A stretch of 64,000 nt of DNA from Vibrio sp. NTOU-M3. GTDB taxonomy: Bacteria > Pseudomonadota > Gammaproteobacteria > Enterobacterales > Vibrionaceae. A program made the translations under genes and the position numbers. The notes under the pieces are model-generated. The model was not told where the DNA came from. It made no database searches and saw nothing but the letters and a program-made list of their open reading frames with translations. Shown piece by piece: positions 13,501 through 29,304 of this stretch (position 1 is the stretch's first letter; the number at the start of each line of letters is the position of its first letter). The stretch spans positions 1,798,001 to 1,862,000 of the forward strand of contig NZ_CP162100.1 in NCBI RefSeq assembly GCF_040869035.1. Reading direction: 5' to 3'.

Positions 13501-13718
13501 TACGTGTCCGTCCCGTAATGATGACCGTACTGACCGTCATTATCGGCTTGATCCCAATTATGTACGGTGAAGGAACGGGTTCTGAAGTGATGCAACGTAT
13601 CGCAGCCCCCATGATCGGCGGTATGGCTTCTGCCCTACTTCTTACTTTGTTAGTACTTCCTGCCATTTTCAAATTATGGAAATCCAGAGAAGTGAAAAAA
13701 AGCTTAAACAAACACTAA
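10581..13718 (+). CDS. cusA: CusA copper/silver RND efflux pump
   Basis: 1045 aa inner-membrane HME-RND transporter exporting Cu(I)/Ag(I) with CusB and CusC. Twelve hydrophobic helices in the RND pattern, with two large periplasmic loops. The proton-relay aspartate lies in GAMVDGAIVMIENVHK. The three methionines of the E. coli copper site (573/623/672) correspond here to Met566, Met616 and Met665, with the same 50- and 49-residue spacings. Translationally coupled to cusB by a 4-bp overlap. Other heavy-metal RND types (Czc) are less likely because the Met triad is intact. Confidence 0.95.
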   Translation: MIGAIIRWSINNRFMVLIATLFLTLAGLYSVKNTPVDALPDLSDVQVIIKTSYPGQAPQVVEDQVTYPLTTAMLAVPGAETVRGYSFFGDSYVYIIFNDDTDMYWARSRVLEYLSQVAPKLPPSAKPTLGPDATGVGWIYSYVLQDKTGKHDLAQLRTLQDWFLKYELQTVEGVSEVATVGGMVKQYQVQIDPAKLRAYDLTLQQVNMAIQNGNQETGASVIEVAEAEHMVRTTGYLTDIEDIKSLPLKVTKKGTPLLLGDIADINIGPQMRRGISEFNGEGEAVGGVIVMRFGENASEVIDNVKAKLSELQRGLPEGVEIVATYDRSTLINAAVENLWKKLAEEFIVVAIVCALFLFHIRSSLVIALSLPVGILSAFIVMHWQGINANIMSLGGIAIAIGAMVDGAIVMIENVHKHIERTPLTDKNRWQVIGKAAEEVGAPLFFSLLIITLSFVPVFALEGQEGKMFSPLAFTKTYAMAAAAGLAITLVPVLMGYFIRGNVLPEHKNPVNKGLVALYRPLLNLSLSYPKTMIVLALGLMASAYYPTTKLGSEFIPPLDEGDLMYMPTTYPGISIGKARELLQQTNKLIKTVPEVQTVWGKIGRAETATDPAPLTMIETVIQLKPRDQWRDGVTTESLRKEFDDLVQFPGLTNAWVMPIKTRIDMLATGIKTPIGIKIAGPDLKVIEKIGADLEPILNGINGTASVYAERVAGGRYVTIDIKRRAAARYGLSIKDVQQVISTAVGGMNVGETIEGLERYPINVRYPQDYRDSVVKLQNLPLVTPNGARIALADVADIRYEDGPPMIKTENARPNGWVFVDIEGRDLGSYVVEAQQIVADQLVLPAGYSLAWSGQYEYMERAKERLSVVVPITLAIIMLLLYFSFRRIGEVLIIMATLPLAMVGGLWLMHYLGYNFSIAVGVGFIALAGVAVEIGVIMLVYLNQAWHYRKLHASENQQSLNHEDLTDAIREGAGLRVRPVMMTVLTVIIGLIPIMYGEGTGSEVMQRIAAPMIGGMASALLLTLLVLPAIFKLWKSREVKKSLNKH

Positions 13719-13726
13719 TTCAACTC

Positions 13727-13772
13727 TCCCTAGGGCTGTCCCAACAAAAGAAACACTTTGTTGCCCTAGGGA
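13727..13772 (+). repeat. Strong intergenic hairpin between cusA and the cupredoxin gene
   Basis: Perfect 10-bp arms TCCCTAGGGC (13727-13736) and GCCCTAGGGA (13763-13772), with inner AACAAA/TTTGTT pairing extending the stem past a 6-nt bulge. There is no T-run, so it is not a simple terminator. It may stabilise or process the cus mRNA. The CCCTAGGG core is the same octamer found in both CueR-type promoters upstream. Confidence 0.6.
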
Positions 13773-13795
13773 ACCTTATTAAAAAGGAACAAACC

Positions 13796-14332
13796 ATGAA
13801 AAAAACACTGATTACTCTGGCACTAGCGCTTACTACAACCACTGCATTTGCTGACAAAATGGACCATTCAAATATGGATCATGGCAATATGGACCACGGT
13901 TCAATGAAAATGGACCACAGCAAGATGGATCACTCAGGCATGATGAATATGGAAGGCATGTCTGATGTCGGTATGCCAGCAAAAGGAGCTAAACCAGATA
14001 AAGTTGTGCATGTTCTTCTTAGCGATGACATGAAAATCACTTTCAAAAAAGAAGTAAAGATCGAGCCAAATGACGTCGTTCAATTTGTGGTGATGAACAC
14101 TGGTAAAATTGACCATGAATTTTCCATCGGTTCTGCAGCTGAACAATTAAAACATCGCGAGATGATGAAAACCATGAGTGCACATGCACACGATAGTGGC
14201 AGCACGGTTACGGTAAAACCGGGTAAAGCTAAGCAACTACTTTGGCATTTCCACGGCGACAATAACGTTGAGTTTGCGTGCAATATTCCAGGCCACACTG
14301 AGGCCGGCATGGTGAAGTCTATTCGCCTATAA
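13796..14332 (+). CDS. copI: Periplasmic cupredoxin, CopI-like copper-resistance protein
   Basis: 178 aa. Signal peptide (MKKTLITLALALTTTTAFA), then a His/Met-rich linker with repeated MDHSNMDHG-type units (residues ~21-57), then a cupredoxin domain. Type-1 copper ligands are evident: His in KIDHEFSIG, and Cys/His/Met in FACNIPGHTEAGM near the C-terminus. It probably binds or buffers periplasmic copper exported by CusCBA. A longer in-frame reading begins at 13676 inside cusA, but the ATG at 13796 has AAGGA upstream and gives a clean signal peptide. Followed by a strong terminator. Confidence 0.88.
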   Translation: MKKTLITLALALTTTTAFADKMDHSNMDHGNMDHGSMKMDHSKMDHSGMMNMEGMSDVGMPAKGAKPDKVVHVLLSDDMKITFKKEVKIEPNDVVQFVVMNTGKIDHEFSIGSAAEQLKHREMMKTMSAHAHDSGSTVTVKPGKAKQLLWHFHGDNNVEFACNIPGHTEAGMVKSIRL

Positions 14333-14340
14333 TTACGCTT

Positions 14341-14374
14341 CTCTGAGCTAAGTTTGGCTTAGCTCAGAGATTTC
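14341..14374 (+). terminator. Terminator of the cus/copI operon
   Basis: Perfect 12-bp stem CTCTGAGCTAAG / CTTAGCTCAGAG with loop TTTGG, followed by a short ATTT. It separates the copper operon from the cytochrome genes. Confidence 0.7.
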
Positions 14375-14393
14375 GAACACAATGCGATTAAAC

Positions 14394-14407
14394 TTGATTT
14401 TGATCAA
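14394..14407 (+). promoter_or_regulatory. Consensus FNR box upstream of the cytochrome operon
   Basis: TTGAT-TTTG-ATCAA matches the FNR consensus TTGAT-N4-ATCAA at every fixed position. It is centred ~75 bp before the ATG at 14476. A weak -10 (TACGCT, 14431-14436) at the class II distance would give activation under low oxygen. Confidence 0.7.
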
Positions 14408-14475
14408 TTGAACAACACCACTCTGCTTCCTACGCTTACTGATAATAAGGACTAAACGAAAGCTGGAGGCACCCC

Positions 14476-15519
14476 ATGAAAACCACAACCATAGCATTAG
14501 GGATTGCAGCTATTTTCGTCTGCACAACCGCTCTTGCTGCAAAAACCATGACCTTAGAAACAACCAAACTTAACACCAATCTTAATTTAGATGGACAAGT
14601 TGATGAGGTATGGAATAAGGCTAAATCCCTGAAAGTCAAAGTAAACAAACTCCCTTACAAACCCAACAATGGTTATGAAGGGATCAAGAGAACCAATGTT
14701 GTAATGCGTTCATTTTATGATGATGCGTATATCTACTTTCTGGTTGAGTACGCAGACCCAACCCTTAGTATTGAACGTTTTCCTTGGATGAAACAAGCCG
14801 ATGGCAGTTGGAAACAATTGATCAATAAAGACAGCACAGGCCACGAAAATACCTACTACGAAGACAAATTTGCCCTGTATTGGAACATCAATGCCGACGG
14901 TTTTGACCAAAAAGGCTGTAACGCAGCTTGCCACCGAGCCAAAGACGGCATGATCGAAGGCCGTAAAGATAAAAACCCAGCGCGAAAATTTACCAAGGTA
15001 GACGGTCAATATATCGATATGTGGCATTGGAAAGGCGTGCGAACTGCCCCTCACAATCAACTTGATGATCAATATGTCGATAGCAATACCGATCCTAAGC
15101 AAAACAAAGGCTGGGGTCGAAAAGGCGACAGTAAAACTGGTGGCGGCTATGTCACTAACATCAAAGATGGTCAACCTGCTTTTGTAGCAGACAACCTAAC
15201 TGACACCACCCTACTGATCCTTGAATCTGAGAAAAAACCTTTCACTCAAGAGTACAACCAATCCAATCGCATTCCGGGATTAACAGGCGCACCATTTACG
15301 GGTTCACGTGGTGACATTGATGTTTATGCACAGTGGAACGATGGAATGTGGACACTAGAAATGAGACGAAAACTGGTGACCACGGGTGAAAACGCAGAAA
15401 CACAAGATGTCCAGTTTAATGACCTCACCAAGCCATATCCATTTGGCGTGGCTGTGTTTGACAATACCCAGATAAATCACATCTATCACCTTGGTGTGAT
15501 TAACCTTCAGTTCAAATGA
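14476..15519 (+). CDS. Periplasmic ethylbenzene-dehydrogenase-like haem-binding protein
   Basis: 347 aa with a signal peptide (cleavage near LAAKT, residue ~22). The body fits the EB_dh / DMSO-reductase-like haem-binding domain, a beta-sandwich seen in gamma subunits of type II molybdoenzymes and in stand-alone cytochromes. An unusual CX3CH motif, Cys148-Asn-Ala-Ala-Cys152-His153, could bind a c-type haem covalently. It opens an operon with NrfB-like and STC-like cytochromes behind a consensus FNR box, so a role in anaerobic periplasmic electron transfer is inferred. No molybdoenzyme catalytic subunit is nearby. Confidence 0.7.
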   Translation: MKTTTIALGIAAIFVCTTALAAKTMTLETTKLNTNLNLDGQVDEVWNKAKSLKVKVNKLPYKPNNGYEGIKRTNVVMRSFYDDAYIYFLVEYADPTLSIERFPWMKQADGSWKQLINKDSTGHENTYYEDKFALYWNINADGFDQKGCNAACHRAKDGMIEGRKDKNPARKFTKVDGQYIDMWHWKGVRTAPHNQLDDQYVDSNTDPKQNKGWGRKGDSKTGGGYVTNIKDGQPAFVADNLTDTTLLILESEKKPFTQEYNQSNRIPGLTGAPFTGSRGDIDVYAQWNDGMWTLEMRRKLVTTGENAETQDVQFNDLTKPYPFGVAVFDNTQINHIYHLGVINLQFK

Positions 15520-15576
15520 TGCTCGGGCTGAGGTGGGCCAATGTTGGCCTACCTCTTCGAACGTTTGGGAGGCGAT

Positions 15577-16137
15577 ATGCACACATGGTCTGTTCGTGCC
15601 GTTTGTATTGTCCTATTTACAACTTTCAGTGGCTGCATGTTCTATGCTCATGCCGAAGAGACATTTAGCGCTCAATTGTCCCCCAGCAACACTCTTGAAC
15701 ACATTCAAAAAGAGAACAAACGCTGTATTCGATGCCACCAGAAAGAACGTTTATTGAAACAAATTAGTGCAATTCATTCCGTAGGGAAACACGCAAGTAG
15801 TGAGTACGAGAACAACTGTACGGCCTGCCACGGCGATAAAGAAAAACACCCAAAAGATGATCACACCATCATTCCCCAACGAGATAGCTTACTCTTTAGT
15901 GCTTGGGAGCAAAACCAGCGTTGTGTTTCATGTCACTCCCCTATTCTGTTACGACACTCAGACTGGACCCATGATGTACATGCCGCCAAGTTAACCTGTT
16001 CTAATTGTCATCAACTTCATCGCTCCCAAGACCCGATTATTGGCATACAGCCCCGTTTTAGAATTGGGTTATGTGTGACCTGTCATGAAAGCATGAAACA
16101 GATAAAGCATTACAAACAATTGAAAAGCGAGGAATAA
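15577..16137 (+). CDS. NrfB-like pentahaem c-type cytochrome
   Basis: 186 aa. An N-terminal export signal ends near YAHAEE. There are five CXXCH motifs: CIRCH (50-54), CTACH (81-85), CVSCH (116-120), CSNCH (141-145) and CVTCH (166-170). Haem number, spacing and length match E. coli NrfB (188 aa), including the WTHDVHAAKLTCSNCH region. NrfB carries electrons to nitrite reductase NrfA, but no nrfA is in this window, so the partner is unknown. The ATG at 15577 follows GGGAGG; an ATG at 15541 gives a less convincing N-terminus. Confidence 0.82.
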   Translation: MHTWSVRAVCIVLFTTFSGCMFYAHAEETFSAQLSPSNTLEHIQKENKRCIRCHQKERLLKQISAIHSVGKHASSEYENNCTACHGDKEKHPKDDHTIIPQRDSLLFSAWEQNQRCVSCHSPILLRHSDWTHDVHAAKLTCSNCHQLHRSQDPIIGIQPRFRIGLCVTCHESMKQIKHYKQLKSEE

Positions 16138-16141
16138 GATC

Positions 16142-16600
16142 ATGAAGAAAACGTTGATATTAATAGTGTTCCTGCTTACCAGCGCTGTTTATTCAGCGGC
16201 TGACGAATTACCAAATCCAGAGCAAGACAACCTTGCCAACCGGCATTTGCAAGATGAGACTTGTGCTGGGCAGTGCCATGAAGGGGAGGAAGTCTCTGAT
16301 GATTTGGAATTTGAGTATCAAAGCTGTATTGAATGCCATGATTTGATGGTGAATCTTGACGGTAAAGCACACAACATAAAACACCAAGATGACGAACAGA
16401 TGGTCTGTGTGGACTGCCACGTTCCACATGAAGCCTATGCCCCCAAAGAAGGTTGCATTGACTGCCACGATGAAGAGGACGAAGCGATATCAAGTGAGTT
16501 ATCCCACTTTCATATCAAAGCTCAGCCTTCCTATTTTCAGTTTATTTTTAAACGATTTAACAACCAAACTTTATCCCAAAGCGAGAGAGCCTTATTCTAA
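16142..16600 (+). CDS. STC/CctA-like small tetrahaem cytochrome c
   Basis: 152 aa with a signal peptide (about 1-20). Haem sites: CAGQCH (Cys41, an unusual CX3CH), CIECH (62-66), CVDCH (89-93) and CIDCH (105-109). Spacing and the CVDCHVPH segment resemble the Shewanella small tetrahaem cytochrome and the FccA haem domain. After the last haem there are ~40 extra residues ending FIFKRFNNQTLSQSERALF, not typical of STC. The gene then stops in AT-rich DNA at the edge of the glycosaminoglycan island. It starts 4 bp after the pentahaem gene, so the two are co-translated. Confidence 0.75.
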   Translation: MKKTLILIVFLLTSAVYSAADELPNPEQDNLANRHLQDETCAGQCHEGEEVSDDLEFEYQSCIECHDLMVNLDGKAHNIKHQDDEQMVCVDCHVPHEAYAPKEGCIDCHDEEDEAISSELSHFHIKAQPSYFQFIFKRFNNQTLSQSERALF

Positions 16601-17426: not shown

Positions 17427-19988
17427 TTAGTGATTTAAAATTAATGTTGGTTTGGTGTCAGATTCGGTACTAAAGAAACTCACGTCCGATCGACCCGATT
17501 GCTCTCCTCGGTTTTCAAGCAGTAAGCTCACAACCCCATGATTGGTGTCGGTTAACAGAGAAGAAACATCAAATTCGACCCACTCTCCAACGTGCGCTGA
17601 TGACACATTCACTGTTGGGCCGACGAGCTCTGGAGTCGGCAATGAGTTCCATGTAATAGACTCTTGCGTCCAATCATTATGACTTAATCGAGATACGGTA
17701 ATTTGACGACTCGAGTCTGTATTCGATGCCCGGACTTTCATTTTCAGAATAGAGGATGATAAATCCGTTGTATCCACATCGCTTAGGTCAAACTTAAGCA
17801 CCGCTTTTCTGTCATAGCTATCATTGTCATTTTTGACCACAAGGTAATTCATATCGCTGTAGTTCGTATTGGCGTATCTTCCACCACGAACAAATGCATC
17901 TTCTTGCGCGTAGACTTCCGCTACATTGAGACTCACAACAACACTCTTGCCTAAATCTTCCACCAAACTCGGGGTAATAACAGCGATATTACGATGACCC
18001 AACTTAGGAGAAGACAACGAAATATTCACTTCAGCACCCGCCACTCCAGGGGTAGAAACCGACAACGTTCCATTGGTTTCATCAAACATAACCACACTCT
18101 GATGATCGACAGACAGACTTGTACCATCAGCCAACTGAACTAAACCAGGCTGATAGAAGACTGCGCCAGTGACACCAAGACCTGAATGCGTAACTGACTG
18201 AAGCTCTGACGTATTTGAAACCACCTGTACTGGTGAATTTTGTGCATATTGCGCAGTTCGATCGACATCTGAATTCGGCAGTATGATGTATTGATATTGT
18301 CCATCGGTAGGTTTAATCCCGTGCCCGATTCGCAAAGTAAATACCTCTTTTTGCACAAGTTCATTTGAATACTTGCTGTTGATGCGGTTCCAGTTGCCAG
18401 AATGGGTATTGTTGCTCATTTGACCATACCAGTTCTCTGGAAAAACGTATCCGACATTATCGTGATGTACCCACTTGGCATTCACTAGCTGGCGCGCACC
18501 ATTTTGATAAACACGGCCATCTACCGTAACCAGCCCATCCAATGAGGTTTGGTTTACCGTTGTGTTAATGTGCTCACCACGTTGAGAAGTAATTCCAGCC
18601 CCTAACGCCACTACCTCATCATTAAAGCTAAACCACGCTTTTTTGGCTTGCGTGCTGTAGTAGTTCATATCAAAAACGCCAACACCAACGTTGCCATCCG
18701 TCACCCCGCCAGTGAACGTGGTACTTTGAACCACCTTGCCCCAAAGTGCCGGACGTTTAACCAACACCGGAGCAGTTACGCCGGGAACAAATTTCCAATC
18801 CCAAACTGGAAAGATTTCATGATATTCATCGCCATCTTGCATCAAAAACATGCTGCCAAAACCGAGCCAAAAACCTAACTTGTTTTCACCGTTTCCATAT
18901 TCATTCGGTTCTGTTCGGTTTGAATTCATTTTAATGCCAATAAAATGATGGTCCGCGAGTTTGGTGACATAATCTGAGCGCCAAAATGATTTAAAACCAT
19001 TCAGTCCGGATACACCGCCATTGACATGATGTTGAAACGCTTCTGCCTCTGCTTTTCTTTGCTCCGTCAACCCTTGTACATACTGCGTTTGCGCTCTTAG
19101 TATCGGGTTATCTAGCGGGACTTTTCGGCTAATTCCTCGACCTTCGACGTTATAATCTAAGACACCATTCCAATTTAACCAACGCACGCCATCAAGGAAG
19201 TAATTGACCACAATCTCTCGTTTCTCGGCCGGGAAAGCCCATTGCAAATCTCGAACGTGATAAGCCCAAAACGTTAGGGATTTAATAAATGTTTCGCCAT
19301 ATCCACCGCTATATAGCTGCTTGCCATGTTGATGAAAAGAATAATCTTTTTGGATACCTTCACCGTTTGTGATCTCAATAACATCGAGCAATCCATTGAT
19401 GCCTCGGTCAACTAATTGTTCGTTGTCATTTAGCAAACCTTTGTAAATCACACTGGTTGAAATATCAGATTTGTTCGCACCCGTTTTACTCGGAAAATCA
19501 GGCATATAACGAACAATATTACTCTTAACTTGTTCTGGGACCTTATCACCCAAAATGAGCAAAATTGGCCCTAATAGTCGTGGAATCCCAATATCATTCC
19601 ACCACCAACTGCTATTTTCGCGGTTCTCATGTGCCCAAAATTGCAAGCTGATCAAAAGGGCATTCTGAGCTTCAGGGTGTACGTCATAATGTGCGCCGGC
19701 CGCAAGCGTTAACATTCGCTCACCGTGTTTCATCAACTCATCCGCATTTGTTTGATACTCATAATCGATGTCACTCCAAGTACCGTCTGGATTCATGCTT
19801 GAAATAAGTTGAGACACGGTATCTTGAAAGCTAGTGCCTGACTGTGGAAATCTATCGGCTTCTTGCTGTGCTAAATCGGGGACTATACGGCTTTTTAATA
19901 ACTCTATTTGTTCACTAGCATAAGATGTGAAACTCATAGAGACCATTGCTGCTAATATTGTACTTTTGATAAAGGTGTATTTCTTCAT
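17427..19988 (-). CDS. Secreted polysaccharide lyase family 8 (chondroitin/hyaluronan lyase) with DNRLRE module
   Basis: 853 aa. Signal peptide about 1-24. The N-terminal alpha/alpha toroid carries the PL8 catalytic set: Asn131 (SWWWNDIGIPR), His221 and Tyr230 (FHQHGKQLYSGGYG, the 9-residue His-Tyr spacing known from hyaluronate lyase), and Arg284/Arg288 (EGRGISR). PL8 beta-sandwich domains follow. From about residue 690 there is a DNRLRE/CBM96-like module (EDAFVRGGRYANTNY...), which probably binds carbohydrate or a surface. It cleaves the 1,4 bond to uronic acid, giving unsaturated disaccharides. Chondroitin versus hyaluronan preference cannot be read; xanthan lyase is a less likely relative. 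Confidence 0.85.
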   Translation of the reverse strand: MKKYTFIKSTILAAMVSMSFTSYASEQIELLKSRIVPDLAQQEADRFPQSGTSFQDTVSQLISSMNPDGTWSDIDYEYQTNADELMKHGERMLTLAAGAHYDVHPEAQNALLISLQFWAHENRENSSWWWNDIGIPRLLGPILLILGDKVPEQVKSNIVRYMPDFPSKTGANKSDISTSVIYKGLLNDNEQLVDRGINGLLDVIEITNGEGIQKDYSFHQHGKQLYSGGYGETFIKSLTFWAYHVRDLQWAFPAEKREIVVNYFLDGVRWLNWNGVLDYNVEGRGISRKVPLDNPILRAQTQYVQGLTEQRKAEAEAFQHHVNGGVSGLNGFKSFWRSDYVTKLADHHFIGIKMNSNRTEPNEYGNGENKLGFWLGFGSMFLMQDGDEYHEIFPVWDWKFVPGVTAPVLVKRPALWGKVVQSTTFTGGVTDGNVGVGVFDMNYYSTQAKKAWFSFNDEVVALGAGITSQRGEHINTTVNQTSLDGLVTVDGRVYQNGARQLVNAKWVHHDNVGYVFPENWYGQMSNNTHSGNWNRINSKYSNELVQKEVFTLRIGHGIKPTDGQYQYIILPNSDVDRTAQYAQNSPVQVVSNTSELQSVTHSGLGVTGAVFYQPGLVQLADGTSLSVDHQSVVMFDETNGTLSVSTPGVAGAEVNISLSSPKLGHRNIAVITPSLVEDLGKSVVVSLNVAEVYAQEDAFVRGGRYANTNYSDMNYLVVKNDNDSYDRKAVLKFDLSDVDTTDLSSSILKMKVRASNTDSSRQITVSRLSHNDWTQESITWNSLPTPELVGPTVNVSSAHVGEWVEFDVSSLLTDTNHGVVSLLLENRGEQSGRSDVSFFSTESDTKPTLILNH

Positions 19989-20532
19989 AACCTTACCTTT
20001 TTATTATCTATCGAAAACAGGCCTTTCCCCTACCAACAAGACCAAACAAATTAGATTTGACTACATGTATTATTAACTAAGAAACTGAACAGACTTAGTT
20101 AAAGATATATTTATTAAAACCTCATCATAAACTCCTTATTCACATAAACAGAAACTATCTTAAAATTAAATGTAACAAGTTAATAATTAACAGAATTATG
20201 ACTAAAGTAATAAGTATTATTTATATAGAGATAATATTTAATTATTAACATTGAAATTATTAAATTAAAAAACAAACATTAGGAACACCATACATTACAA
20301 TGGTAGCAATAATACATTTTTAATATAATTAATGTAATAACATGACAATAATCACGTTCAGTGCATAAAGATGAATAGGAAATAATAAATAAAGCCGCGA
20401 TTAATCACGTTAAGCTACTTTTATATTGGTGTGCTATAAAAAGAGGGGGTAAAAAGTCTCTACCTAAGTAGAGACTTTATTAGCAGATGACACTTTTTAC
20501 TACGAAAGAGTAAAAGTGGCAGATTAAGTGTA
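19989..20532. other. AT-rich gap between the two PL8 lyase genes
   Basis: 544 bp. It holds the promoter of the leftward PL8 gene (start 19988, preceded by AAAGGTAAGGTT on the minus strand) and, at its right end, the terminator of the second PL8 gene. Several TGTAA/TTACA-like half sites (for example around 20170 and 20290-20340) could be operator material, but no clear dyad is assignable. Confidence 0.4.
20448..20478 (-). terminator. Terminator of the second PL8 lyase gene
   Basis: Perfect 11-bp stem AAAGTCTCTAC (20453-20463) / GTAGAGACTTT (20468-20478), loop CTAA. On the minus strand it is followed by TTACCCCC; together with the U-rich stem end this gives a TTTTT run. Confidence 0.75.
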
Positions 20533-23500
20533 TTAATAACTTGAGGTGCTTAACGAAGGCGCCGTAAAGTCACTGTCTTTACTATAAAAAGTGGCGTATT
20601 TTTGCCCTCCAGAATCACCACTGTACAATCGCAATGAGATCTGTTGTTTACCCTGCTCTAATGCAGATTTCACTAATCCAGTCACGTCAATCGCTACCGT
20701 CTGATCCGTAGTATTGACTGCAACCGTAATCGGCGTGCTATTTCCTCTCGATAGTGAATTAAAGGTCACATTACTTTCACTCCAATTAGAGTCAATTTCT
20801 GCAATATTGAACGTCATGGCTTGGCCAATTGATTTCACCTCAAGTACGACTTCAGCACGACTCAACGCATCAGCTCTTAAATGCCCAATAGGGAACTTAA
20901 GCACACTTTCACGTGTATAGCTTGGCGAGTTTGGATCCAGTTTTACGATCAAGCGTGAATCCTGACCAAAATTCCCATCAGCAGAAGTGCCACCTTGAAC
21001 AAATGCATCTTCAACAACATTAGCCTGCTCTTCTATCGGATTATAATCGATGTTAATCACAGGGCCCTCAGCTGCACTTTCTTTACTGTTAAACGTCACC
21101 CAGTTATTTGAACCATTATTGGCAACTTCAAGTTTCAGGCTAATCGCGTTTAAGCCTTGTTGGGCAGCTGTACGTACAGCATCCGTGATATCCCATTGGA
21201 ATACACCATTGTTGTTCGTTGCCGTTGCCACTTGCACGCCGGTTGCAGGTGCAGTATTCGCAGTTATTGCAGACTCATCCCACGAGTTATCATTCACCAA
21301 ATAAGCAACAACGGGCTGAGCTGCGCCGACATTGAAAACAGATAACTCAAGCTTAGCGGTATTTAATGCAGAGGCATTTACCTGATCGATTGGAAATTGA
21401 AGGTAAGCATGACGTCGATATGCGGAATTAGAATCTGCTTTAACCGCGATTTTTTCAGAGGTACCGTAGTTGTCATCAGAGTAGCCTCCGTAACGGACAA
21501 AGGCATCTGATGCGACTTGCAACACGAGATCAGGAGTGAGTTGAATGTCCCCCATAGCCAAGGAGTCCGATGAAACATTGGTTTGCTGGTAATTCGGCGC
21601 ACTCAATTGGGATGATGCCCCACCGTGCGAATTGTATAAGCTCACCGTTGCAGCGGTATACGCCTGATCCGGATCAGCAAAATACAGTGTTGGTTGCTGC
21701 GAACTGACACCCGTGACCACAAACATGCCAGCTTGATCAGACACCAGCGTCAGCTCCGTATTACTCCATTGACCCGCTTCTCGCAGTACAAGTTGCAAAA
21801 CGTCATCACGCTTATCATATACCGCCAATGTGCTCCCTTCTTGATAGGTCACAAACCGGTCACGAGGGTTTAAGTTTGATACTGAATTAGCAGTGACTCC
21901 CGGATAGATAGCGTAACTGAAGGTTGCGTTTGCAGGATAAGCACCATGATCAATCCAGCTAGTAAACACCGTGCCCGTAATGTCACGGTCACTTTCTGAG
22001 CTATTTACTCGCGTCCACTTGCCAGTACGCTCTTCAACACTGACCTTATAGGTATTGTTGTCCAATGGCATATAAGCCGTGCCATTATGCAGCAGGTAGG
22101 CCAGCTCTTCGCCGCTATAGCTATTTTCACCCAAAGTTAAAGAGTCTGTACTCCCATTACTAAGCCCAACGGTCACATTATCGCGAAACCAATTTTGCTC
22201 AAGGGATGTGGTAACCAGACCTGCTTTACTGGAAGTGACCTCTGAGGCCATCGCAACAATAGCGTCGGAGAAAACGAAGTTCGCCTTCTGAACTGTGACC
22301 CCAAATTTATTTTGGCTATGTACCATGATGGCGTTGTTTGCAGCCGACATAACACCAGAAAATGCAATACCTTTGCTATTCCAGCCTACGTTCATCGACT
22401 GGCCTTCTCTTCCAGTCACACCAGGAATTTTCAACCAGTCCCACAAAGGAAAGATGTTGTAGTACTCATCTCCTGACAAACGGATGGAATGCGATCCCAT
22501 AGACATCAAAGCGCCTAGTAAGTTTTCACCATTGCCCTGTTCAATCGCCATGGTTCGATTAGAATGAGTGAGTGCAGAATATTGATAAGCCTGTTCATTT
22601 TTAAGCAAATAATCGCCATTCCAATACCCTTTCACGCCCCGGTACGGCATTTGATCTGCAGATACTTGTCCACTGGTCACTTTATTAACCAGTTCAAAGT
22701 GTTCAGCTCTATCAGGATTGAGTCGTTGTAATGCATCCGTAGAGAACCCGCGACCAAGGTTGTTTTCTCTTGAAACACCACCTCGTCCACCCGTTAGATA
22801 ATCATGATAGCGACCGCGGAATGTGGGATACATGCCTTGATCCATAAAACCTTCTAACGAGTTTTGGCTATTGGTGCTCATCGAGTAATAACCGCGCGTA
22901 AACGCTTCAACCTGAAGTGTCCGCATGACCAAAACCCAACCATAAGAGTTAGTATTAAGCATCGGACCATGAGCAAAGAAACTCTTATCTGCATTGATCC
23001 CAATATCATTACGACCAACTTCATTCAGTGCTTCATTACTGTAATAGCTCAACCTTTCTGAGTTGTCTCTTACCACGCCGCTATACATGTTCGCTATGGC
23101 AATATCAATCGCATTCGCCCCTCGACCATAGCTCCAGTGACTTCGGGCATTCAGGTATTTCGCGTCAACTAACGCTTGGTAATCTACCGCATTGACCGGG
23201 ATTTGATTCGCTCTGACATACACCACCAATTCACCTACCTTGTGGGGAATACCAATGTAATTGAACCACCAGCCTGTATGAGTATATTGAGCTTCTGCAA
23301 AGTGTTTCATTCCCGCTGAAATGGTTGTAAGCAGTGCCGGAGATGTACTTTCGTTACATTGAGTATTGGTGTAACAACGCGCTAAAGCCAGCAAGCGATC
23401 TAAATGTTCGGTCACAGGAAAAGCTGCTGCGGTTGAGGATACATAGTCAATATCCGACCATTGACCGGTCTCTGGATTAAACTCTCCGCCTTCCGATATC

Positions 23501-23718
23501 GGAACAATCCAATTGCCTACGTCAGTCACACTAGGCTTTGTAGCATCGATATACGCTGCCATTTGCTGCGCTACACCATCGCGAATATCTGCGTCACTCT
23601 GAACCGAGGCAGTAACGGCAGACGTTGTATCTACAGGCATCGCAATTGCTATCGGCGTCGCTAAAAGCCCCAGACTCATCGTAAGAGCGCTTAACTTAAG
23701 TACTGTCATTTTTTTCAT
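20533..23718 (-). CDS. Secreted PL8 polysaccharide lyase with two C-terminal DNRLRE modules
   Basis: 1061 aa. Signal peptide about 1-27 (LLATPIAIA). Catalytic set in ATG-based numbering: Asn153 (GWWFNYIGIPH), His250 and Tyr259 (FFAHGPMLNTNSYG, again 9 apart), and Arg312/Arg317 (GGRGGVSR). PL8 beta domains follow, then two DNRLRE/CBM96-like modules (about 730-895 and 900-1061), one more than its neighbour. The two lyases are clearly related but diverged, suggesting different glycosaminoglycan preferences. The ATG at 23718 has GGTGA five bases upstream; TTG/GTG starts 9-12 bp earlier are possible. Transcribed divergently from murQ and the PTS genes. Confidence 0.85.
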   Translation of the reverse strand: MKKMTVLKLSALTMSLGLLATPIAIAMPVDTTSAVTASVQSDADIRDGVAQQMAAYIDATKPSVTDVGNWIVPISEGGEFNPETGQWSDIDYVSSTAAAFPVTEHLDRLLALARCYTNTQCNESTSPALLTTISAGMKHFAEAQYTHTGWWFNYIGIPHKVGELVVYVRANQIPVNAVDYQALVDAKYLNARSHWSYGRGANAIDIAIANMYSGVVRDNSERLSYYSNEALNEVGRNDIGINADKSFFAHGPMLNTNSYGWVLVMRTLQVEAFTRGYYSMSTNSQNSLEGFMDQGMYPTFRGRYHDYLTGGRGGVSRENNLGRGFSTDALQRLNPDRAEHFELVNKVTSGQVSADQMPYRGVKGYWNGDYLLKNEQAYQYSALTHSNRTMAIEQGNGENLLGALMSMGSHSIRLSGDEYYNIFPLWDWLKIPGVTGREGQSMNVGWNSKGIAFSGVMSAANNAIMVHSQNKFGVTVQKANFVFSDAIVAMASEVTSSKAGLVTTSLEQNWFRDNVTVGLSNGSTDSLTLGENSYSGEELAYLLHNGTAYMPLDNNTYKVSVEERTGKWTRVNSSESDRDITGTVFTSWIDHGAYPANATFSYAIYPGVTANSVSNLNPRDRFVTYQEGSTLAVYDKRDDVLQLVLREAGQWSNTELTLVSDQAGMFVVTGVSSQQPTLYFADPDQAYTAATVSLYNSHGGASSQLSAPNYQQTNVSSDSLAMGDIQLTPDLVLQVASDAFVRYGGYSDDNYGTSEKIAVKADSNSAYRRHAYLQFPIDQVNASALNTAKLELSVFNVGAAQPVVAYLVNDNSWDESAITANTAPATGVQVATATNNNGVFQWDITDAVRTAAQQGLNAISLKLEVANNGSNNWVTFNSKESAAEGPVINIDYNPIEEQANVVEDAFVQGGTSADGNFGQDSRLIVKLDPNSPSYTRESVLKFPIGHLRADALSRAEVVLEVKSIGQAMTFNIAEIDSNWSESNVTFNSLSRGNSTPITVAVNTTDQTVAIDVTGLVKSALEQGKQQISLRLYSGDSGGQKYATFYSKDSDFTAPSLSTSSY

Positions 23719-24021
23719 GTTTGTCACCAATTCCTTCTATCAAGTAAGGATTAAATGGTTGAACACTATTCTCGAACACGAACCCTAAATAGCCCCCTAC
23801 CTGTTACCTGCGAGAATCTAAATGCTGACTACAAAAACCCCCTTTCCCATAATCAACAGCATCAGTATGTAACATTAATACATAAATGCACTTAATAATT
23901 GTACTCTTATGACATAACTCACACTTCTATTTATAAAATCACAAATGTACTTTCATTACACACCAAAAAGAAGATACGGTAATGAAACTACAGATAAGTT
24001 TATAAATAAGGATTTGAATTT
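23719..24021. other. Divergent control region, PL8 lyase / murQ-PTS operon
   Basis: 303 bp holding both promoters. A CRP-like site lies at 23908-23923, and TGTA-N7-TACA (about 23947-23961) is a possible operator for the RpiR regulator encoded at the operon end. Otherwise AT-rich. Confidence 0.45.
23908..23923. promoter_or_regulatory. Candidate CRP-cAMP site
   Basis: TATGA-CATAAC-TCACA matches TGTGA-N6-TCACA at 9 of 10 positions. Carbon-catabolite control would suit a PTS sugar operon and its lyase. Confidence 0.4.
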
Positions 24022-24948
24022 ATGCGAGACACCAAGATTGATGCATTGATTGAAAATGAAATGAATTCAAAAACATTAGGGCTTTCAAAAATGAGTACGT
24101 TTGAAATCCTACAAACCATCAATACACACGATAAAACGGTCGCTAGAGCCATTGAAAAACAACTTCCTGCTGTAGAAAAAGCCGTGGATGCGATTTGCAT
24201 GCAACTACTCAACGGTGGTCGGATATTTTATGTCGGCGCCGGAACGAGTGGTCGTCTGGCCGTTCTGGATAGTGCTGAATGTCCCCCTACCTTCGGTACC
24301 GATCCAGAACTGGTTCAGTCGATCATCGCTGGCGGGTTAGATGCCATGCTAGCCGCTGTCGAAGATGTGGAAGACAGCGATACCTTATCGATCAGCGCAT
24401 TAGAATACCGAAACCTCAAGCCTGTCGATGTAGTCATCGGTATTTCTGCCAGTGGACGAACGCCGTTTGCACTTTCAGCACTGAAATACGCCAATGAAAT
24501 GGGTTGCTTAACCATTGCCATTTGTACTCGTGGCACATCCCCAATGGAACAAGAAGCTAACATTGCAATTGCACCTGACGTTGGCCCTGAAGTGCTAAGC
24601 GGCTCTTCGAGAATGAAAAGTGGTACTGCACAAAAAATGCTGCTGGGCATGATCAGTACCACCGTTATGACCCGTTTAGGCAAAGTCTATAACAACCAGA
24701 TGATCGATCTTGTTGCTAACAACGAAAAGCTGATTTATCGCGCAGAGAATATGGTCGCCTCTATCTGCCAAATCCCAGTGGAGAAAGCCAAAGAATTTCT
24801 CGAAAAGGCCCAATACAACCCACGAATTGCAGCGCTTATGTGCCTAGGAAAAGTCTCCTATGAACAAGCACTTAAGTGCATTGAGAACGAATTCCAAACA
24901 CTAGAAGAACAACTTATTACCGCTAAACAGCGCTACACCAGTAACTAA
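24022..24948 (+). CDS. murQ: MurQ-type N-acetylmuramate-6-phosphate etherase family protein
   Basis: 308 aa SIS-domain enzyme. Known MurQ removes the D-lactyl ether from O3 of MurNAc-6-phosphate by beta-elimination, giving GlcNAc-6-phosphate. Both E. coli catalytic glutamates (83 and 114) are present at the same 31-residue spacing: Glu86 (SAECPPTFG) and Glu117 (VEDVED). The SIS phosphosugar loops GAGTSGRLAVLD, ISASGRTPF and SGSSRMKSGTAQK are intact. It leads a mannose-family PTS operon and is divergent from a PL8 lyase; there is no MurP or peptidoglycan-recycling gene nearby. The substrate here may be an O3-linked unsaturated uronyl-HexNAc-6-phosphate; that is inference. Confidence 0.85.
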   Translation: MRDTKIDALIENEMNSKTLGLSKMSTFEILQTINTHDKTVARAIEKQLPAVEKAVDAICMQLLNGGRIFYVGAGTSGRLAVLDSAECPPTFGTDPELVQSIIAGGLDAMLAAVEDVEDSDTLSISALEYRNLKPVDVVIGISASGRTPFALSALKYANEMGCLTIAICTRGTSPMEQEANIAIAPDVGPEVLSGSSRMKSGTAQKMLLGMISTTVMTRLGKVYNNQMIDLVANNEKLIYRAENMVASICQIPVEKAKEFLEKAQYNPRIAALMCLGKVSYEQALKCIENEFQTLEEQLITAKQRYTSN

Positions 24949-24972
24949 AAAACATTAGAAAGAGAGAACACT

Positions 24973-25455
24973 ATGGGTATCAATCTAACTCGAGTCGACA
25001 ATCGTTTGCTCCATGGTCAAGTTGCGGTGGCATGGAGCCATCACTCCGGTGCCAATTTGATCGTCATCGCCAATGATGATGTTGCAGAAGACTCAGTACA
25101 ACAAAACCTGATGACTATGTTAGCAGGAAACATGGGCGTACGATTTTTCTCCATTCAAAAAACCATCGATGTCATCCACAACGCCTCACCAGAGCAGCAC
25201 ATCATTCTTGTCGTAAGAACGCCTCAAGACGTGGTTCGCTTGGTTGAAGGTGGTGTGCCACTCAATGACATCAACATTGGCAACATGCACTTCTCCGAAG
25301 GCAAAAAACAAATTCATGTCACCGTATCAGTTGATGACAACGACATGCAAGCGTTCAAGCGCCTTAAAGAACTCGGAGTACGTTTTGCCATCCAGCGTAT
25401 GCCTGATGAAGACAAGCTGGATATCTTTGAACTCTACGACGCATATAAGGGATAG
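24973..25455 (+). CDS. PTS mannose/sorbose-family EIIB component
   Basis: 160 aa cytosolic phosphotransfer domain of the PTSIIB_sorb family (AgaB/AgaV-like). The active-site histidine is His14 in TRVDNRLLHGQV. It passes phosphate from EIIA (encoded at 27137) to the sugar during import through EIIC-EIID. Two bases separate it from the EIIC gene. In Firmicutes such PTS units import hyaluronan/chondroitin disaccharides; the lyase genes next door suggest the same substrate class here. Confidence 0.9.
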   Translation: MGINLTRVDNRLLHGQVAVAWSHHSGANLIVIANDDVAEDSVQQNLMTMLAGNMGVRFFSIQKTIDVIHNASPEQHIILVVRTPQDVVRLVEGGVPLNDINIGNMHFSEGKKQIHVTVSVDDNDMQAFKRLKELGVRFAIQRMPDEDKLDIFELYDAYKG

Positions 25456-25457
25456 AT

Positions 25458-26231
25458 ATGTTTGAAATACTATTAATCGGACTGTGGGCAGCCTTTGCAG
25501 GCGTCGACTTTTATAGCGGGCAGTTTTATTTTGGACGCCCTATCGTAACCGGCCCTGTTGTTGGTTTGATCTTAGGTGATTACCAAACGGGCCTAGCAGT
25601 AGGTGCTGCACTTGAGCTCGCATGGCTTGGCTTGGTGCCGATTGCTGGCGCGCAGCCACCGAATGTCACCATCGGTGCTGTGGTAGGTACAGCATTCGCA
25701 ATCCAAGGCGGTTTTGCACCAGAAGTCGTAGTGGGTATTGCACTACCGTTCGCTATCTTGATGCAACAACTGATCGTACTTCAATTTACCGTGTTCTCAG
25801 GCTTAATGCACAAAGCTGACGACTTAGCACAACAAGGTGATGATAAAGGGATAGCCCGTATCAACCATTTAGGCATGCTCTCTTTAGGGTGTCTTTATTT
25901 TATCACCGCGGTACTGCCTGTTTACTTTGGTGAAGAAGTTGCTAACACCATTATTACCTACGTTCCTGAAAGCATCATCACTGGCCTTAAAATAGCGGGT
26001 GGTTTAATGCCTGCACTTGGCTTCGCGATGCTACTTAAGATCATGTTTAAAAAAGCATTCATTCCCTACTTTGTTGCCGGGTTTGCAGCCATGACATATT
26101 TGAATCTTCCAGTACTTGCTATCGCTATTTTCGCTACATGTATCGCTGTTATTGACTACATGACGCGCCAACGAATCGAAGAAAACAAGCCAGCTGTTAC
26201 GTCAAACCAAAACCAAGGCGGAGGTATTTAA
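25458..26231 (+). CDS. PTS mannose/sorbose-family EIIC permease
   Basis: 257 aa multi-helix inner-membrane channel component (AgaW/ManY-like). Family motifs: the N-terminal GVDFYSGQFYFGRP segment, ALELAWLGLVPIAGAQPPNV, and a long hydrophobic C-terminal half. With EIID it forms the sugar translocator. Spacing to EIID is 1 bp, so these are tightly coupled. Confidence 0.92.
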   Translation: MFEILLIGLWAAFAGVDFYSGQFYFGRPIVTGPVVGLILGDYQTGLAVGAALELAWLGLVPIAGAQPPNVTIGAVVGTAFAIQGGFAPEVVVGIALPFAILMQQLIVLQFTVFSGLMHKADDLAQQGDDKGIARINHLGMLSLGCLYFITAVLPVYFGEEVANTIITYVPESIITGLKIAGGLMPALGFAMLLKIMFKKAFIPYFVAGFAAMTYLNLPVLAIAIFATCIAVIDYMTRQRIEENKPAVTSNQNQGGGI

Positions 26232-26232
26232 G

Positions 26233-27069
26233 ATGTCAGAACAACTAACTCAACCAGCATCTGTTGCCGAACAAAATGAGACAAGCTCAAATGCACTGCC
26301 AAAGAGTGTGGTTAGAAAAATATTGTGGCGACAACTCTTTATTCAGGCTTCTTTTAACTACGAGCGGATGCAAGCGTGTGGTTTTCTCTGGGCAATTTCG
26401 CCGGGTTTAAAGCATATCCACAAGCAAAAAGAACGTTTGGGTGAGTCAATGCGGGCTCACATGGACTTCTTTAACTCACACACTTATTTGGTGACGTTTA
26501 TTCTGGGCCTTGTCCTTGCAATGGAGCAGAGCAAACAAAAGGTAGAAACCATTCGTGCATTTAAAGTAGCCGCAATGGGACCCATTGCAGGTATTGGCGA
26601 TGCGATGTTTAACCTTACGTTAAAGCCAATTAGTGCAGCCATTGCGGCCTCTTTAGCACTGGATAATGTGGCATTAGCGCCCATTTTCTATCTGTTGCTA
26701 CTGAACGTGACCCGACTAAGCATACAGATTCCGTTGTTCAAGTATGGATACGAGTCTGGCTTGAAAGCACTGGACAAGCTGAAAGACCACACCGTTGCGA
26801 TGGCTCGCTCTGCAACCATCGTCGGTATTATGGTAATTGGTGCCATGTCTGCCCAGTTTGTAAAACTGAAGACAACAGCCACCATTGGTTATGCGGACAC
26901 AACCTTTAATATCCAAACCGACTTACTGGATAAAATTGTCCCTAACATTCTACCAGTGCTGTTCGTACTCCTGACTTATCGCCTACTTATGAAAGGCCTC
27001 TCTCCAACGAAGATCATATTCCTGATGATTTTGTTCGGTATAGGTGGTCATTACATCGGCATTTTATAA
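26233..27069 (+). CDS. PTS mannose-family EIID component
   Basis: 278 aa (AgaE/ManZ-like). A cytosolic N-terminal domain with RQLFIQASFNYERMQACGF and HMDFFNSHTYL, then hydrophobic C-terminal segments (MGPIAGIGDAMFNLTLKPI is the family glycine-rich region). Partner of EIIC in the translocation complex. The next gene, EIIA, is 67 bp downstream beyond a hairpin. Confidence 0.92.
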   Translation: MSEQLTQPASVAEQNETSSNALPKSVVRKILWRQLFIQASFNYERMQACGFLWAISPGLKHIHKQKERLGESMRAHMDFFNSHTYLVTFILGLVLAMEQSKQKVETIRAFKVAAMGPIAGIGDAMFNLTLKPISAAIAASLALDNVALAPIFYLLLLNVTRLSIQIPLFKYGYESGLKALDKLKDHTVAMARSATIVGIMVIGAMSAQFVKLKTTATIGYADTTFNIQTDLLDKIVPNILPVLFVLLTYRLLMKGLSPTKIIFLMILFGIGGHYIGIL

Positions 27070-27086
27070 CGGCTCTTGTTGCCTCT

Positions 27087-27110
27087 AATGCGGGCTTTGC
27101 CCGCATTCTT
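27087..27110 (+). terminator. Intra-operon hairpin between EIID and EIIA
   Basis: Perfect 9-bp stem AATGCGGGC / GCCCGCATT, loop TTT, followed only by CTT. It is probably a partial terminator or mRNA stabiliser that sets the EIIA level relative to EIIBCD. Confidence 0.5.
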
Positions 27111-27136
27111 AACCTAATTCATTCATAGGACGAAAT

Positions 27137-27571
27137 ATGATAGCTGTAATTCTCGTTGGTCACGGTCATTTTGGCTCAGGTTTAGGCCAAGCAATTCACC
27201 AGATTATTGGTGCCCAACCTAATTTCTCAACCATTGATTTTGTTGAAGGCATTTCTGTTCCTGAACTCGAAATCCTGATGCTGAAAGAAGTCGACAAACT
27301 AGACACCACAGACGGCGTGGTTTTCTTCACCGACTTATTAGGTGGCAGCCCGTTCCGAGTAGCCTCACAAATCGCCCTACAACGGGATGATGTCGAAGTA
27401 ATTTCAGGTACGAACTTACAACTGTGTGTCGAGATGTTGTTAGAGCGAGAGGATTTAGATCTAATTGAATTTGCCAAGACAGCAGTAGTCAGTGGGCATA
27501 ACGGACTGACACGATTAGCCGACGCACTAGAAGCCTCACGCCAAGATAACTCATCAGAAGATGGTATCTAA
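27137..27571 (+). CDS. PTS mannose-family EIIA component
   Basis: 144 aa cytosolic EIIA-man domain (AgaF/ManX N-terminal-like). The phosphorylated histidine is expected to be His9 in LVGHGHFG. DLLGGSPFRVAS is a typical family segment. It accepts phosphate from HPr and hands it to EIIB. Stand-alone rather than fused to EIIB. Confidence 0.9.
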   Translation: MIAVILVGHGHFGSGLGQAIHQIIGAQPNFSTIDFVEGISVPELEILMLKEVDKLDTTDGVVFFTDLLGGSPFRVASQIALQRDDVEVISGTNLQLCVEMLLEREDLDLIEFAKTAVVSGHNGLTRLADALEASRQDNSSEDGI

Positions 27572-27588
27572 CAACTGAGGTTGGACGC

Positions 27589-28425
27589 ATGGAATTCATT
27601 TCACTCTTAGTCAATAACGCTACCTTCTATAGCATATTACTTCAACTTGCGATGGGATTAGTGCTTGGGCTAGCGATGGGGTTAACCGGTGTGGGCGGTG
27701 GAATTCTTATCATCCCACTTCTTCAGTTCGTATTTCATATGGAACCAGTGCTTGCGGTCGGAACCGCAAGCCTGATTGCATCATTAGTAAAAGTGAATGC
27801 GAGCTTTTGCCATATTAAAGCCGCCAATGTCGACTGGCGCAGTGTTAAAGGCATTCTACTTGGGGCGATTCCTATTGGAATGTTAAGTGCTTCAACGGTC
27901 GTGTATTTGCATCAACATGAAGACTATAACCAACTGATTTCCACCGCAACACAGGTTCTCATTGTGTTGATGATGTTTTATGCCCTTTTTTCACTCATGC
28001 GCAAATATATGAAAAGCCAACACCCTCAGCCGCAAACAATGCCGTTATCTGCACCATCAAATTGGTCTTATCGTCGCGCTTCCAGCTCGGGGGCTTTTTG
28101 TGGGCTTATCATAGGAACGACTGGCATTGGTGGTGGCGTATTGCTTCTTCCAGTTCTCAATTCTTACTTAGGTATTGGGATAAAAAAAGCCGTTGGCTCG
28201 TCTATTGTTATTGCATTGGCTTTATCAGCCAGTACATCTTTCATTTATGCGAAAGGAGGCCAAAGTGATATCCCTACTGCGTTTACCTTGGTTGTAGGGT
28301 CTTTGCTTGGTGTTCCACTTTCAACCGTGTTGCTTAAACAACTCTCTGAAGCCAAGTTGTATTTAACGACGTTAAGCGTGATATGTGTAAGCATATTGAT
28401 TATGATGTTAAGCAACATTCTTTAA
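27589..28425 (+). CDS. TauE/SafE-family membrane permease
   Basis: 278 aa with about eight hydrophobic helices in two repeats. Each repeat carries the glycine-rich signature (AMGLTGVGGGILIIPLL near residue 28 and IGTTGIGGGVLLLPVL near 180). Family members export or import sulphite, sulphoacetate or other small anions. In this island it might export sulphate released from chondroitin sulphate or an acidic sugar product, but no sulphatase is encoded here, so the cargo is unknown. It lies 17 bp after EIIA in the same operon. Confidence 0.8.
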   Translation: MEFISLLVNNATFYSILLQLAMGLVLGLAMGLTGVGGGILIIPLLQFVFHMEPVLAVGTASLIASLVKVNASFCHIKAANVDWRSVKGILLGAIPIGMLSASTVVYLHQHEDYNQLISTATQVLIVLMMFYALFSLMRKYMKSQHPQPQTMPLSAPSNWSYRRASSSGAFCGLIIGTTGIGGGVLLLPVLNSYLGIGIKKAVGSSIVIALALSASTSFIYAKGGQSDIPTAFTLVVGSLLGVPLSTVLLKQLSEAKLYLTTLSVICVSILIMMLSNIL

Positions 28426-28452
28426 ACTTCAACATATATTTCAGGCGTCTAT

Positions 28453-29304
28453 ATGTCAGATCTTATTCCTAGGTTGGAAACACTATCGGTACATGGTAGT
28501 GAAGCAGAAAAGAAAATTTCTGGATTTCTTCTGAACGATAAAAAAAACAACATCTCTACACTTAGCGCCATCGCTCTAGGGAAACAGTGCGGTGTGAGTA
28601 ATGCGTCTGTCATCCGCTTCGCACAACACCTTGGATACAAAGGATACTCCGAATTCAAGCTGGAATATTTAGCGATTCAAAAACACGATGTAGGAGAAAT
28701 TCTATACAGCGACGTCCGCTTAGATGACTCCCCTTCGGAGGTGATCCAAAAAGCAGGATATCTATTTAGCAAGAATGTTGAAAATTCCATTAAAGTTGTT
28801 GAACCTGAAGTGTTAGACCAGCTTGCAAATGCTATCGTCAACGCTGGAAAAATTGCGTTATTTGGCGTCGGCTCATCCGGTGTCGTGGCATCTGATGCTT
28901 GCCAAAAGCTCATTCGAATTAATAAAAACGTACTCTTTAATTCAGACACGCACGTACAACGTGCCTATGCGAGTATGTTGACGGAAAACGATCTTGCTCT
29001 GGCTTTTACTACCCGAGGGCAAACTAAAGAAGTCCTTCAATCACTCGAAATTGCTCAACAATCAGGTTGCACAGTGTCTGCGATTACTCGTTATGGTAAA
29101 ACACCAACAACCAAAATGGCGGATCTTGTGCTGCCATTTGCTTACCGAGAGCGCCACCACGAATTAGGCATGATCACTCCTCAATTATCTCAAATGATGC
29201 TGTTTGATATTTTGTTCTTTAGAGTCACGGCCTTGATGGGTGACAGTGCAACCTCTTCCTTAAAACGTATCCGTAACACCTTTTCAAATCTCACATCAAA
29301 ATAA
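28453..29304 (+). CDS. RpiR/MurR-family transcriptional regulator
   Basis: 283 aa. An N-terminal RpiR helix-turn-helix (residues ~1-77, with ISTLSAIALGKQCGVSNASV) and a SIS phosphosugar-binding domain (~110-260, with LFGVGSSGVVASDACQKL and FTTRGQTKEVL). Such proteins sense phosphorylated sugars; MurR, the regulator of E. coli murQ, belongs to this family. As last gene of the murQ-PTS operon it probably responds to the imported sugar phosphate and controls the operon and the divergent lyase. Confidence 0.85.
   Translation: MSDLIPRLETLSVHGSEAEKKISGFLLNDKKNNISTLSAIALGKQCGVSNASVIRFAQHLGYKGYSEFKLEYLAIQKHDVGEILYSDVRLDDSPSEVIQKAGYLFSKNVENSIKVVEPEVLDQLANAIVNAGKIALFGVGSSGVVASDACQKLIRINKNVLFNSDTHVQRAYASMLTENDLALAFTTRGQTKEVLQSLEIAQQSGCTVSAITRYGKTPTTKMADLVLPFAYRERHHELGMITPQLSQMMLFDILFFRVTALMGDSATSSLKRIRNTFSNLTSK

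Follow-up and report, generated by a model that had tools for sequence, protein, structure and literature searches.

A MurQ-type enzyme heads a Vibrio phosphotransferase operon beside PL8 lyases and may take the place of a GH88 hydrolase

The DNA studied here, a stretch of 64,000 nucleotides from Vibrio sp. NTOU-M3 (the window), comes from a genome in two contigs, labelled G000, where it is part of contig C1 (3.27 Mb); at 17427..29304 it holds an operon in which a MurQ-type enzyme is found with polysaccharide lyases of family PL8 and a phosphotransferase system (PTS). An original prediction, made from the letters alone, had proposed that this operon breaks down glycosaminoglycans (GAGs) without a GH88 hydrolase. 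The open reading frames (ORFs) that it claimed are confirmed at their coordinates, and ORFs and family models together give the gene order. On the minus strand lie two PL8 lyases, both above the Pfam cut-offs for PL8 families. Lyase a (17427..19988, 853 aa) carries one CBM96 domain, is chondroitinase-AC-like and has what reads as a signal-peptide-like start; lyase b (20533..23730, 1065 aa) carries two CBM96 domains, is divergent from murQ and perhaps has its real start four codons further downstream. The nearest solved structures for both are chondroitinase AC (1cb8/1hm2), and both retain the His/Tyr, Arg/Arg and Glu/Asn motifs, which we take to be the catalytic residues of PL8 lyases. On the plus strand follow murQ (24022..24948, 308 aa) and a PTS whose four subunits are placed by family models in the mannose/sorbose family, as predicted: EIIB (24973..25455, AgaV-like), EIIC (25458..26231, AgaW-like), EIID (26233..27069, AgaE-like, under the AgaE model cut-off) and EIIA (27137..27571, AgaF-like). 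A TauE/SafE permease recognised by its family model (27589..28425) and an RpiR/MurR-type (RpiR/SIS) regulator (28453..29304), both also on the plus strand, complete the operon.

The enzyme that heads the plus-strand genes belongs to the MurQ family, exceeding the cut-off of the MurQ equivalog model TIGR00274 (315.5 versus 302 bits), and a motif alignment places the SIS sugar-phosphate motifs in it. Glu86 and Glu117, said in the original prediction to be kept and presumably equivalent to the catalytic pair of E. coli MurQ, are invariant in 152/152 aligned MurQ sequences. Window-type MurQs form a single clade (support 100/100) on a long stem of 0.91, grouping with the MurQs of Proteus and Providencia and separate from the MurP- and AnmK-linked classes of Vibrio, in a tree for which the program flagged long branches at the base. 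Four residues, I6, S142, C162 and L230, are fixed in 20/20 window-class MurQs, whereas the other MurQs (n = 132) have L, A, A and V at these positions in 131, 131, 128 and 131 sequences. The SxSGxT loop of SIS proteins holds the sugar phosphate in related enzymes; S142 restores the first serine of this loop and hence should sit near the active site. Two further candidate residues were dropped: A80, found as alanine in 91/132 other MurQs once the sample was widened, and Q226, which is leucine in three relatives at 62–68% identity. Proteus MurQs lie near the window clade, and a ptsH mutant of Proteus mirabilis grows more weakly on chondroitin sulfate C, a phenotype termed interesting by its authors in the excerpted text of PMC13289894 and perhaps coincidental here.

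Window-type MurQ (77–80% identity) occurs in 5/196 Vibrio genomes, namely the window genome, G164, G175, G135 and G022, and a sample of the whole family returned the same five, all in the genus of the window, among 329 genomes (E ≤ 1e-96). By named contigs, a scan for the clade outside Vibrio returned two loci, one of them a 40% cyanobacterial relative; among the best 120 of 3888 matches, proteins at 62–68% identity to the window MurQ come from the source 'lgn', without genomic context. In all five genomes the gene heads the same PTS operon, MurQ-IIB-IIC-IID-IIA-(TauE)-RpiR, with TauE in 4/5 and lacking only in G022 (L048), and the regulators of the other four operons are 80–85% identical to that of the window. 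A PL8 gene lies beside the mannose-family PTS in the window and in three of the four other MurQ loci, lyase b adjoining murQ divergently in 4/5; lyase a has no counterpart in the 20 kb stretches around murQ of the other four genomes. An adjoining MurP or AnmK is seen for 0/5 window-type murQ genes, versus MurP for 12/12 inspected members of the class at 52–55% identity and AnmK for 11/15 inspected members of the class at 45–48%.

The region between lyase b and murQ holds a conserved operator-like array. A near-palindrome with the consensus ATGTACTTTCATTACAT occurs four times upstream of murQ in 5/5 genomes (the window and L045–L048), with a spacing of 32-46-32. In the window they are found at 23867..23883 (minus strand, 12.3 bits), 23899..23915 (plus, 19.5 bits), 23945..23961 (plus, 25.4 bits) and, nearest murQ, 23977..23993 (minus, 15.1 bits). 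The matrix was built from three sites per genome (15.1–25.4 bits); the outermost site, left out of matrix building and found with the matrix, is weaker (10.2–17.5 bits across genomes). As background, ten shuffles of the window sequence gave 0–7 matches of at least 10 bits per 64 kb. The RpiR regulator is predicted to be, and probably is, the ligand of these sites. The top-scoring site of the window (26.3 bits) lies at 23343-23359, within the coding sequence of lyase b, and has no counterpart of at least 9 bits in lyase b of L045, L047 or L048. Another 678 kb of loci yield five sites of at least 13.5 bits: two in L085, one in L063 and a 17.4-bit site of G054 that appears twice because two loci overlap there. 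The G054 site (L092:10297 = L050:2623) lies where a GH88-type gene begins, by TRAP-type transporter genes, and may reflect chance or a related regulator.

Across the genus, the window EIIC matches 54 places in 46/196 genomes (E ≤ 1e-60), and 52 of these loci (51 and the window; G081:C39 and G154:C3:6608 were left out) were inspected, with PL8 scored inside the fetched stretches, beyond which PL8 genes would be missed. Of these, 35/52 are plain Aga loci, in which AgaS is present while PL8, MurQ and GH88 are all missing from view. GH88 is in the cluster at 9/52 loci, six of them with PL8 in view; one of these GH88 proteins was compared, and its nearest structure is an unsaturated 3S-rhamnoglycuronyl hydrolase. 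MurQ is present at 5/52 loci, four with PL8, and a pair of NagS-like SIS proteins at 3/52. At each of the ten PL8-linked loci there is either GH88 (6) or MurQ (4), never both, PL8 is in view at 0/38 loci with neither, and no GH88 is seen in the MurQ clusters (window operon and L045–L048). MurQ is associated with PL8 over all loci (Fisher p 0.0035) and among the 43 loci without GH88 (4/4 PL8-linked versus 1/39 others, Fisher p 4e-5), and GH88 and MurQ exclude each other inside the ten PL8-linked loci (p 0.005), with all three p values overstating independence, the loci being related.

From this gene content and from family knowledge we infer a substrate, its phosphorylation and a chemistry on the unsaturated disaccharide: the operon would be a PTS-linked GAG operon in which a MurQ paralogue replaces GH88 and acts as a 6-phospho-disaccharide lyase, a reading that we hold to be probable, if modestly so. 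Secreted PL8 lyases would cut hyaluronan (or chondroitin) to an unsaturated uronyl-beta-1,3-N-acetylhexosamine (HexNAc), which the mannose-family PTS would import and phosphorylate on O6 of the reducing HexNAc. The MurQ-type enzyme would take the open-chain HexNAc-6-phosphate, abstract H2, release the unsaturated uronate from O3 in a beta-elimination and then re-add water. The products would be HexNAc-6-phosphate and the unsaturated uronate, the latter entering KduI-KduD-KdgK-Eda. A MurQ substrate must have its reducing end free and bear an acetamido group at C2, a phosphate at C6 and, on O3, a group that can leave; PTS-imported unsaturated-uronyl-beta-1,3-N-acetylglucosamine (GlcNAc) would offer all four, and as in N-acetylmuramic acid (MurNAc) its O3 substituent would bear a carboxylate. 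The operon is real and unusual, and the chemistry of the original prediction is plausible: it fits, and comparative genomics supports it, with a clade of its own heading the PTS in 5/5 operons, MurQ in the slot that GH88 occupies at other PL8-linked PTS loci, and one of the five genomes without a GH88 or UGL (unsaturated glucuronyl hydrolase) match.

Several findings weigh against this assignment. Over all 52 loci, exclusion between GH88 and MurQ is not significant (P 0.37), and we rejected it as stand-alone proof, regarding only the PL8-conditioned counts as informative; the MurQ loci, moreover, are one orthologous group. The window genome also has a GH88 enzyme. At C1:1316562-1317743, approximately 500 kb from the operon, a 394-aa protein exceeds the Pfam GH88 cut-off (37.7 versus 26.6 bits) and scores 259 bits to the structure 1vd5 of an unsaturated glucuronyl hydrolase (UGL) and 223–225 bits to structures of gbs1889 (3anj, 225). 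One gbs1889 structure is deposited under the name 'unsaturated chondroitin disaccharide hydrolase', and gbs1889 of S. agalactiae is named as a UGL in the excerpted text of PMC6837340. By these similarities, the protein is a true UGL. Given the weak score of the Pfam model for a true UGL, the protein itself was used as a search query, and matches were found also in G135, G164 and G175; these three genomes also have further GH88-domain matches of 140–183 bits. Among the five genomes with the MurQ operon, only G022 is without a UGL match. The predicted absence of GH88 thus stands for the operon, in whose ORFs and families none is found, and falls for the genome. The original prediction had named, as what would speak against it, a GH88 enzyme elsewhere that is needed for growth on the disaccharide; the search of the rest of the genome finds the enzyme to exist, which is the presence half of that statement. 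A GH88-independent organism is therefore the wrong description of the window genome and may be the right one for a relative.

The UGL could be thought to hydrolyse the PTS-imported disaccharide in trans, leaving MurQ to clear a side product or another 3-O-substituted HexNAc-6-phosphate. Its presence in 4/5 MurQ-operon genomes would suit this, as would the streptococcal route, which joins a PTS to a UGL: in the parts of PMC6837340 that treat it, the hyaluronan disaccharide is imported by the PTS and phosphorylated at C6, C6-sulfated disaccharides are unsuitable, unlike in import by an ATP-binding cassette (ABC) transporter, and the UGL acts downstream of the PTS. Because it does so, a phosphorylated disaccharide would not by itself require MurQ. 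Against hydrolysis in trans, the UGL sits in a second GAG locus of its own (L013:6127-16995 and L044:707-17245, approximately 1309–1339 kb on C1 of the window genome), with KduI, KdgK, Eda, a SulP-like gene, GalE/GalT-like genes, KduD, a GH112-type phosphorylase, a third PL8 lyase (PL8c), three sulfatase-like genes, DUF2264 and a peptide-type ABC transporter. Family models recognise KduI, KduD, Eda and the 1,3-beta-galactosyl-N-acetylhexosamine phosphorylase, with KdgK barely under its cut-off (395.5 versus 400); PL8c, next to the UGL, is recognised by similarity to lyase b, and the sulfatases, a sulfatase maturase, GalE, GalT and the ABC transporter were named by reading the sequence. Because the UGL, PL8c, uronate genes and transporter-like genes form a separate locus, the window genome has a second GAG route, one that probably takes unphosphorylated or sulfated disaccharides; the two loci, one joining a PTS to MurQ and the other an ABC transporter to sulfatase-like genes and a UGL, fit by analogy the streptococcal contrast between PTS and ABC import. 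The best operator-like sites at the UGL locus reach 10.1 and 10.0 bits (L013, L044), a level (10.1 bits) that shuffled sequence also reaches, and the UGL is hence unlikely to belong to the regulon of the operator-like sites; the flank L043 has one site of 13.0 bits. We also rejected shared sites as a link to the UGL or KduI loci, L013 and L044 having at most 10.1 bits and L103 and L104 none of at least 13.5 bits. With G022 lacking any UGL or GH88 match, we judge hydrolysis in trans to be quite improbable.

G022 is the relative that may lack GH88 altogether. Its assembly has two contigs and is 99% complete, it carries the MurQ-PTS cluster with lyase b, and neither the GH88 Pfam model (E ≤ 0.001) nor the UGL protein query (E ≤ 1e-10 or E ≤ 10) finds a match in it. 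Since relatives of KduI, KduD, KdgK (KdgK-like) and Eda are present, G022 could use the unsaturated uronate; one copy of KduI is intact, and in another a stop divides the gene into two ORFs (L103:9531-10370), beside KduD and TRAP-type transporter genes. GlcNAc-6-phosphate would go to NagA and NagB, whose presence we assume. A secreted GH43-like protein is encoded at L048:3762-5290 (28.4 bits, below the Pfam cut-off of 32.2), and upstream of its gene lie two operator-like sites 32 bases apart (17.1 and 11.9 bits). The sites hint at a further polysaccharide enzyme in the regulon, which the proposed route does not explain and which counts among the points against it.

A second set of counterpoints concerns peptidoglycan. 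The window enzyme, with all MurQ motifs conserved, may still act on MurNAc-6-phosphate, and the operon might then be an extra MurNAc uptake system in which MurNAc, or another GlcNAc of peptidoglycan origin with a 3-O-acid, enters through the PTS, MurQ is an ordinary etherase and the PL8 lyases are neighbours with a role of their own. The score above the equivalog cut-off and the retained catalytic residues agree with this, and in G175 no lyase b adjoins murQ (only the surroundings of murQ were examined). Among the matches listed, moreover, the MurP-linked MurQ class (52–55%) is found in the window genome only of the five; for the other four, a system for MurNAc would not be superfluous, and the operon could have that role there. 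The MurP-linked class is, however, rare in the genus as a whole (12/196 genomes among the matches listed), and its lack is no sign of replacement because it is absent from most of the genus. The window genome, for its part, is already provided with two other MurQs, one by AnmK and one by a MurP-like PTS (under the MurP cut-off) and a MurR-like regulator. Lyase b shares the divergent promoter region in 4/5 genomes, and MurQ tracks PL8 among the PTS loci without GH88. Extra MurNAc uptake appears unlikely to us.

If the MurQ-type enzyme does act as a lyase on the disaccharide, the HexNAc is most likely GlcNAc and the polymer most likely hyaluronan. The original prediction had left hyaluronan and chondroitin side by side; chondroitin looks the less likely of the two. 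The same mechanism on the chondroitin disaccharide would give N-acetylgalactosamine (GalNAc)-6-phosphate for an Aga pathway encoded elsewhere. Weighing against hyaluronan, the IIB, IIC and IIA subunits exceed the NCBI model cut-offs for GalNAc-PTS subunits, with IID below, the window lyases are nearest chondroitinase AC, and an Aga-type operon is encoded elsewhere in the window genome, with AgaS recognised by its model and the other genes named by reading and BLAST. AgaS, however, is present in 0/5 MurQ operons versus 4/9 GH88-PTS loci, and none is found above cut-off in G022, where GalNAc-6-phosphate would for this reason be without its usual outlet; on both counts GlcNAc-6-phosphate is the likelier product. 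Known MurQ also yields GlcNAc-6-phosphate, and we consider the chondroitin version distinctly unlikely.

The NagS-like loci of the survey hold pairs of PRK02947-family SIS proteins inside HexNAc-type PTS loci (L102:7270-8756 in G071, L105:7045-8514 in G024 and L106:10985-12463 in G081); such a pair is not present in the window operon. All six proteins exceed the PRK02947 cut-off, and one was compared with the NagS structure 9eol (8e-39). Judged by EIIC, and leaving the MurQ operons aside, no PTS in the genus sample is closer to that of the window than the one in G071, whose IIB, IIC and IID are 69–72% identical. These pairs possibly eliminate at O3 of HexNAc-6-phosphate derivatives. A wider proposal would be that SIS-fold beta-eliminases, arising as the MurQ clade and independently as NagS-like pairs, offer a second, generally used way to open PTS-phosphorylated 3-O-glycosyl-HexNAc: they would be phospho-glycoside lyases that split the bond between two sugars by elimination, where GH88 hydrolyses it. 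In this general form we regard the proposal as doubtful. Next to the operon, at 10581-16600 of the window, an RND-type efflux pump and copper-related and multihaem cytochrome-like proteins were named by reading the sequences only.

In the accounts excerpted from PMC6837340, PMC8222515 and PMC12838403, intracellular GH88 hydrolases open the GAG disaccharides that lyases produce. Among the titles and abstracts listed from the open-access literature (PMC), none joins MurQ or the etherase with hyaluronan or chondroitin breakdown, and in the passages of the listed papers that mention both chondroitin and murQ the two are never joined. If correct, a MurQ-type lyase in the GH88 slot would cleave the glycosidic bond of a GAG disaccharide by a new route, the role of MurQ would extend past peptidoglycan recycling, and annotations as 'MurNAc-6P etherase' outside MurP and AnmK contexts would need review.

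Compared with known systems, the window enzyme resembles the MurNAc-6-phosphate etherase MurQ (TIGR00274; solved relatives 4s12, 4lzj and 1nri) in family, SIS motifs, both glutamates and length, and differs in forming a separate clade, in its fixed substitutions next to conserved motifs and in having a mannose-type PTS and PL8 lyases, not MurP or AnmK, as neighbours. NagS (Streptomyces SCO4393; PDB 9eol), a MurQ-related SIS enzyme, dehydrates GlcNAc-6-phosphate to 6P-chromogen I according to the excerpted text of PMC12680351; there the leaving group is water and no sugar is freed, whereas the window enzyme is proposed to release the uronate. A GalNAc (Aga) PTS operon would be expected to have AgaS (with AgaA, AgaY or AgaZ), as in the plain Aga loci (n = 35) and unlike in the window-type operons. 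ABC import of GAG disaccharides by Streptobacillus, as PMC6837340 reports it, resembles the second GAG locus of the window genome and not the window operon. The streptococcal GAG-PTS cluster (PMC6837340) and the V. alginolyticus hyaluronan locus (PMC8222515) combine, in the sections describing them, PL8 with a four-component PTS as in the window, the latter also having two PL8 lyases, and the GH88-carrying Vibrio PTS loci with PL8 resemble that hyaluronan locus. Both of these clusters, however, hold GH88/UGL and uronate-catabolic genes, as the same sections describe them, whereas the window operon has MurQ in this slot and KduI and KduD elsewhere.

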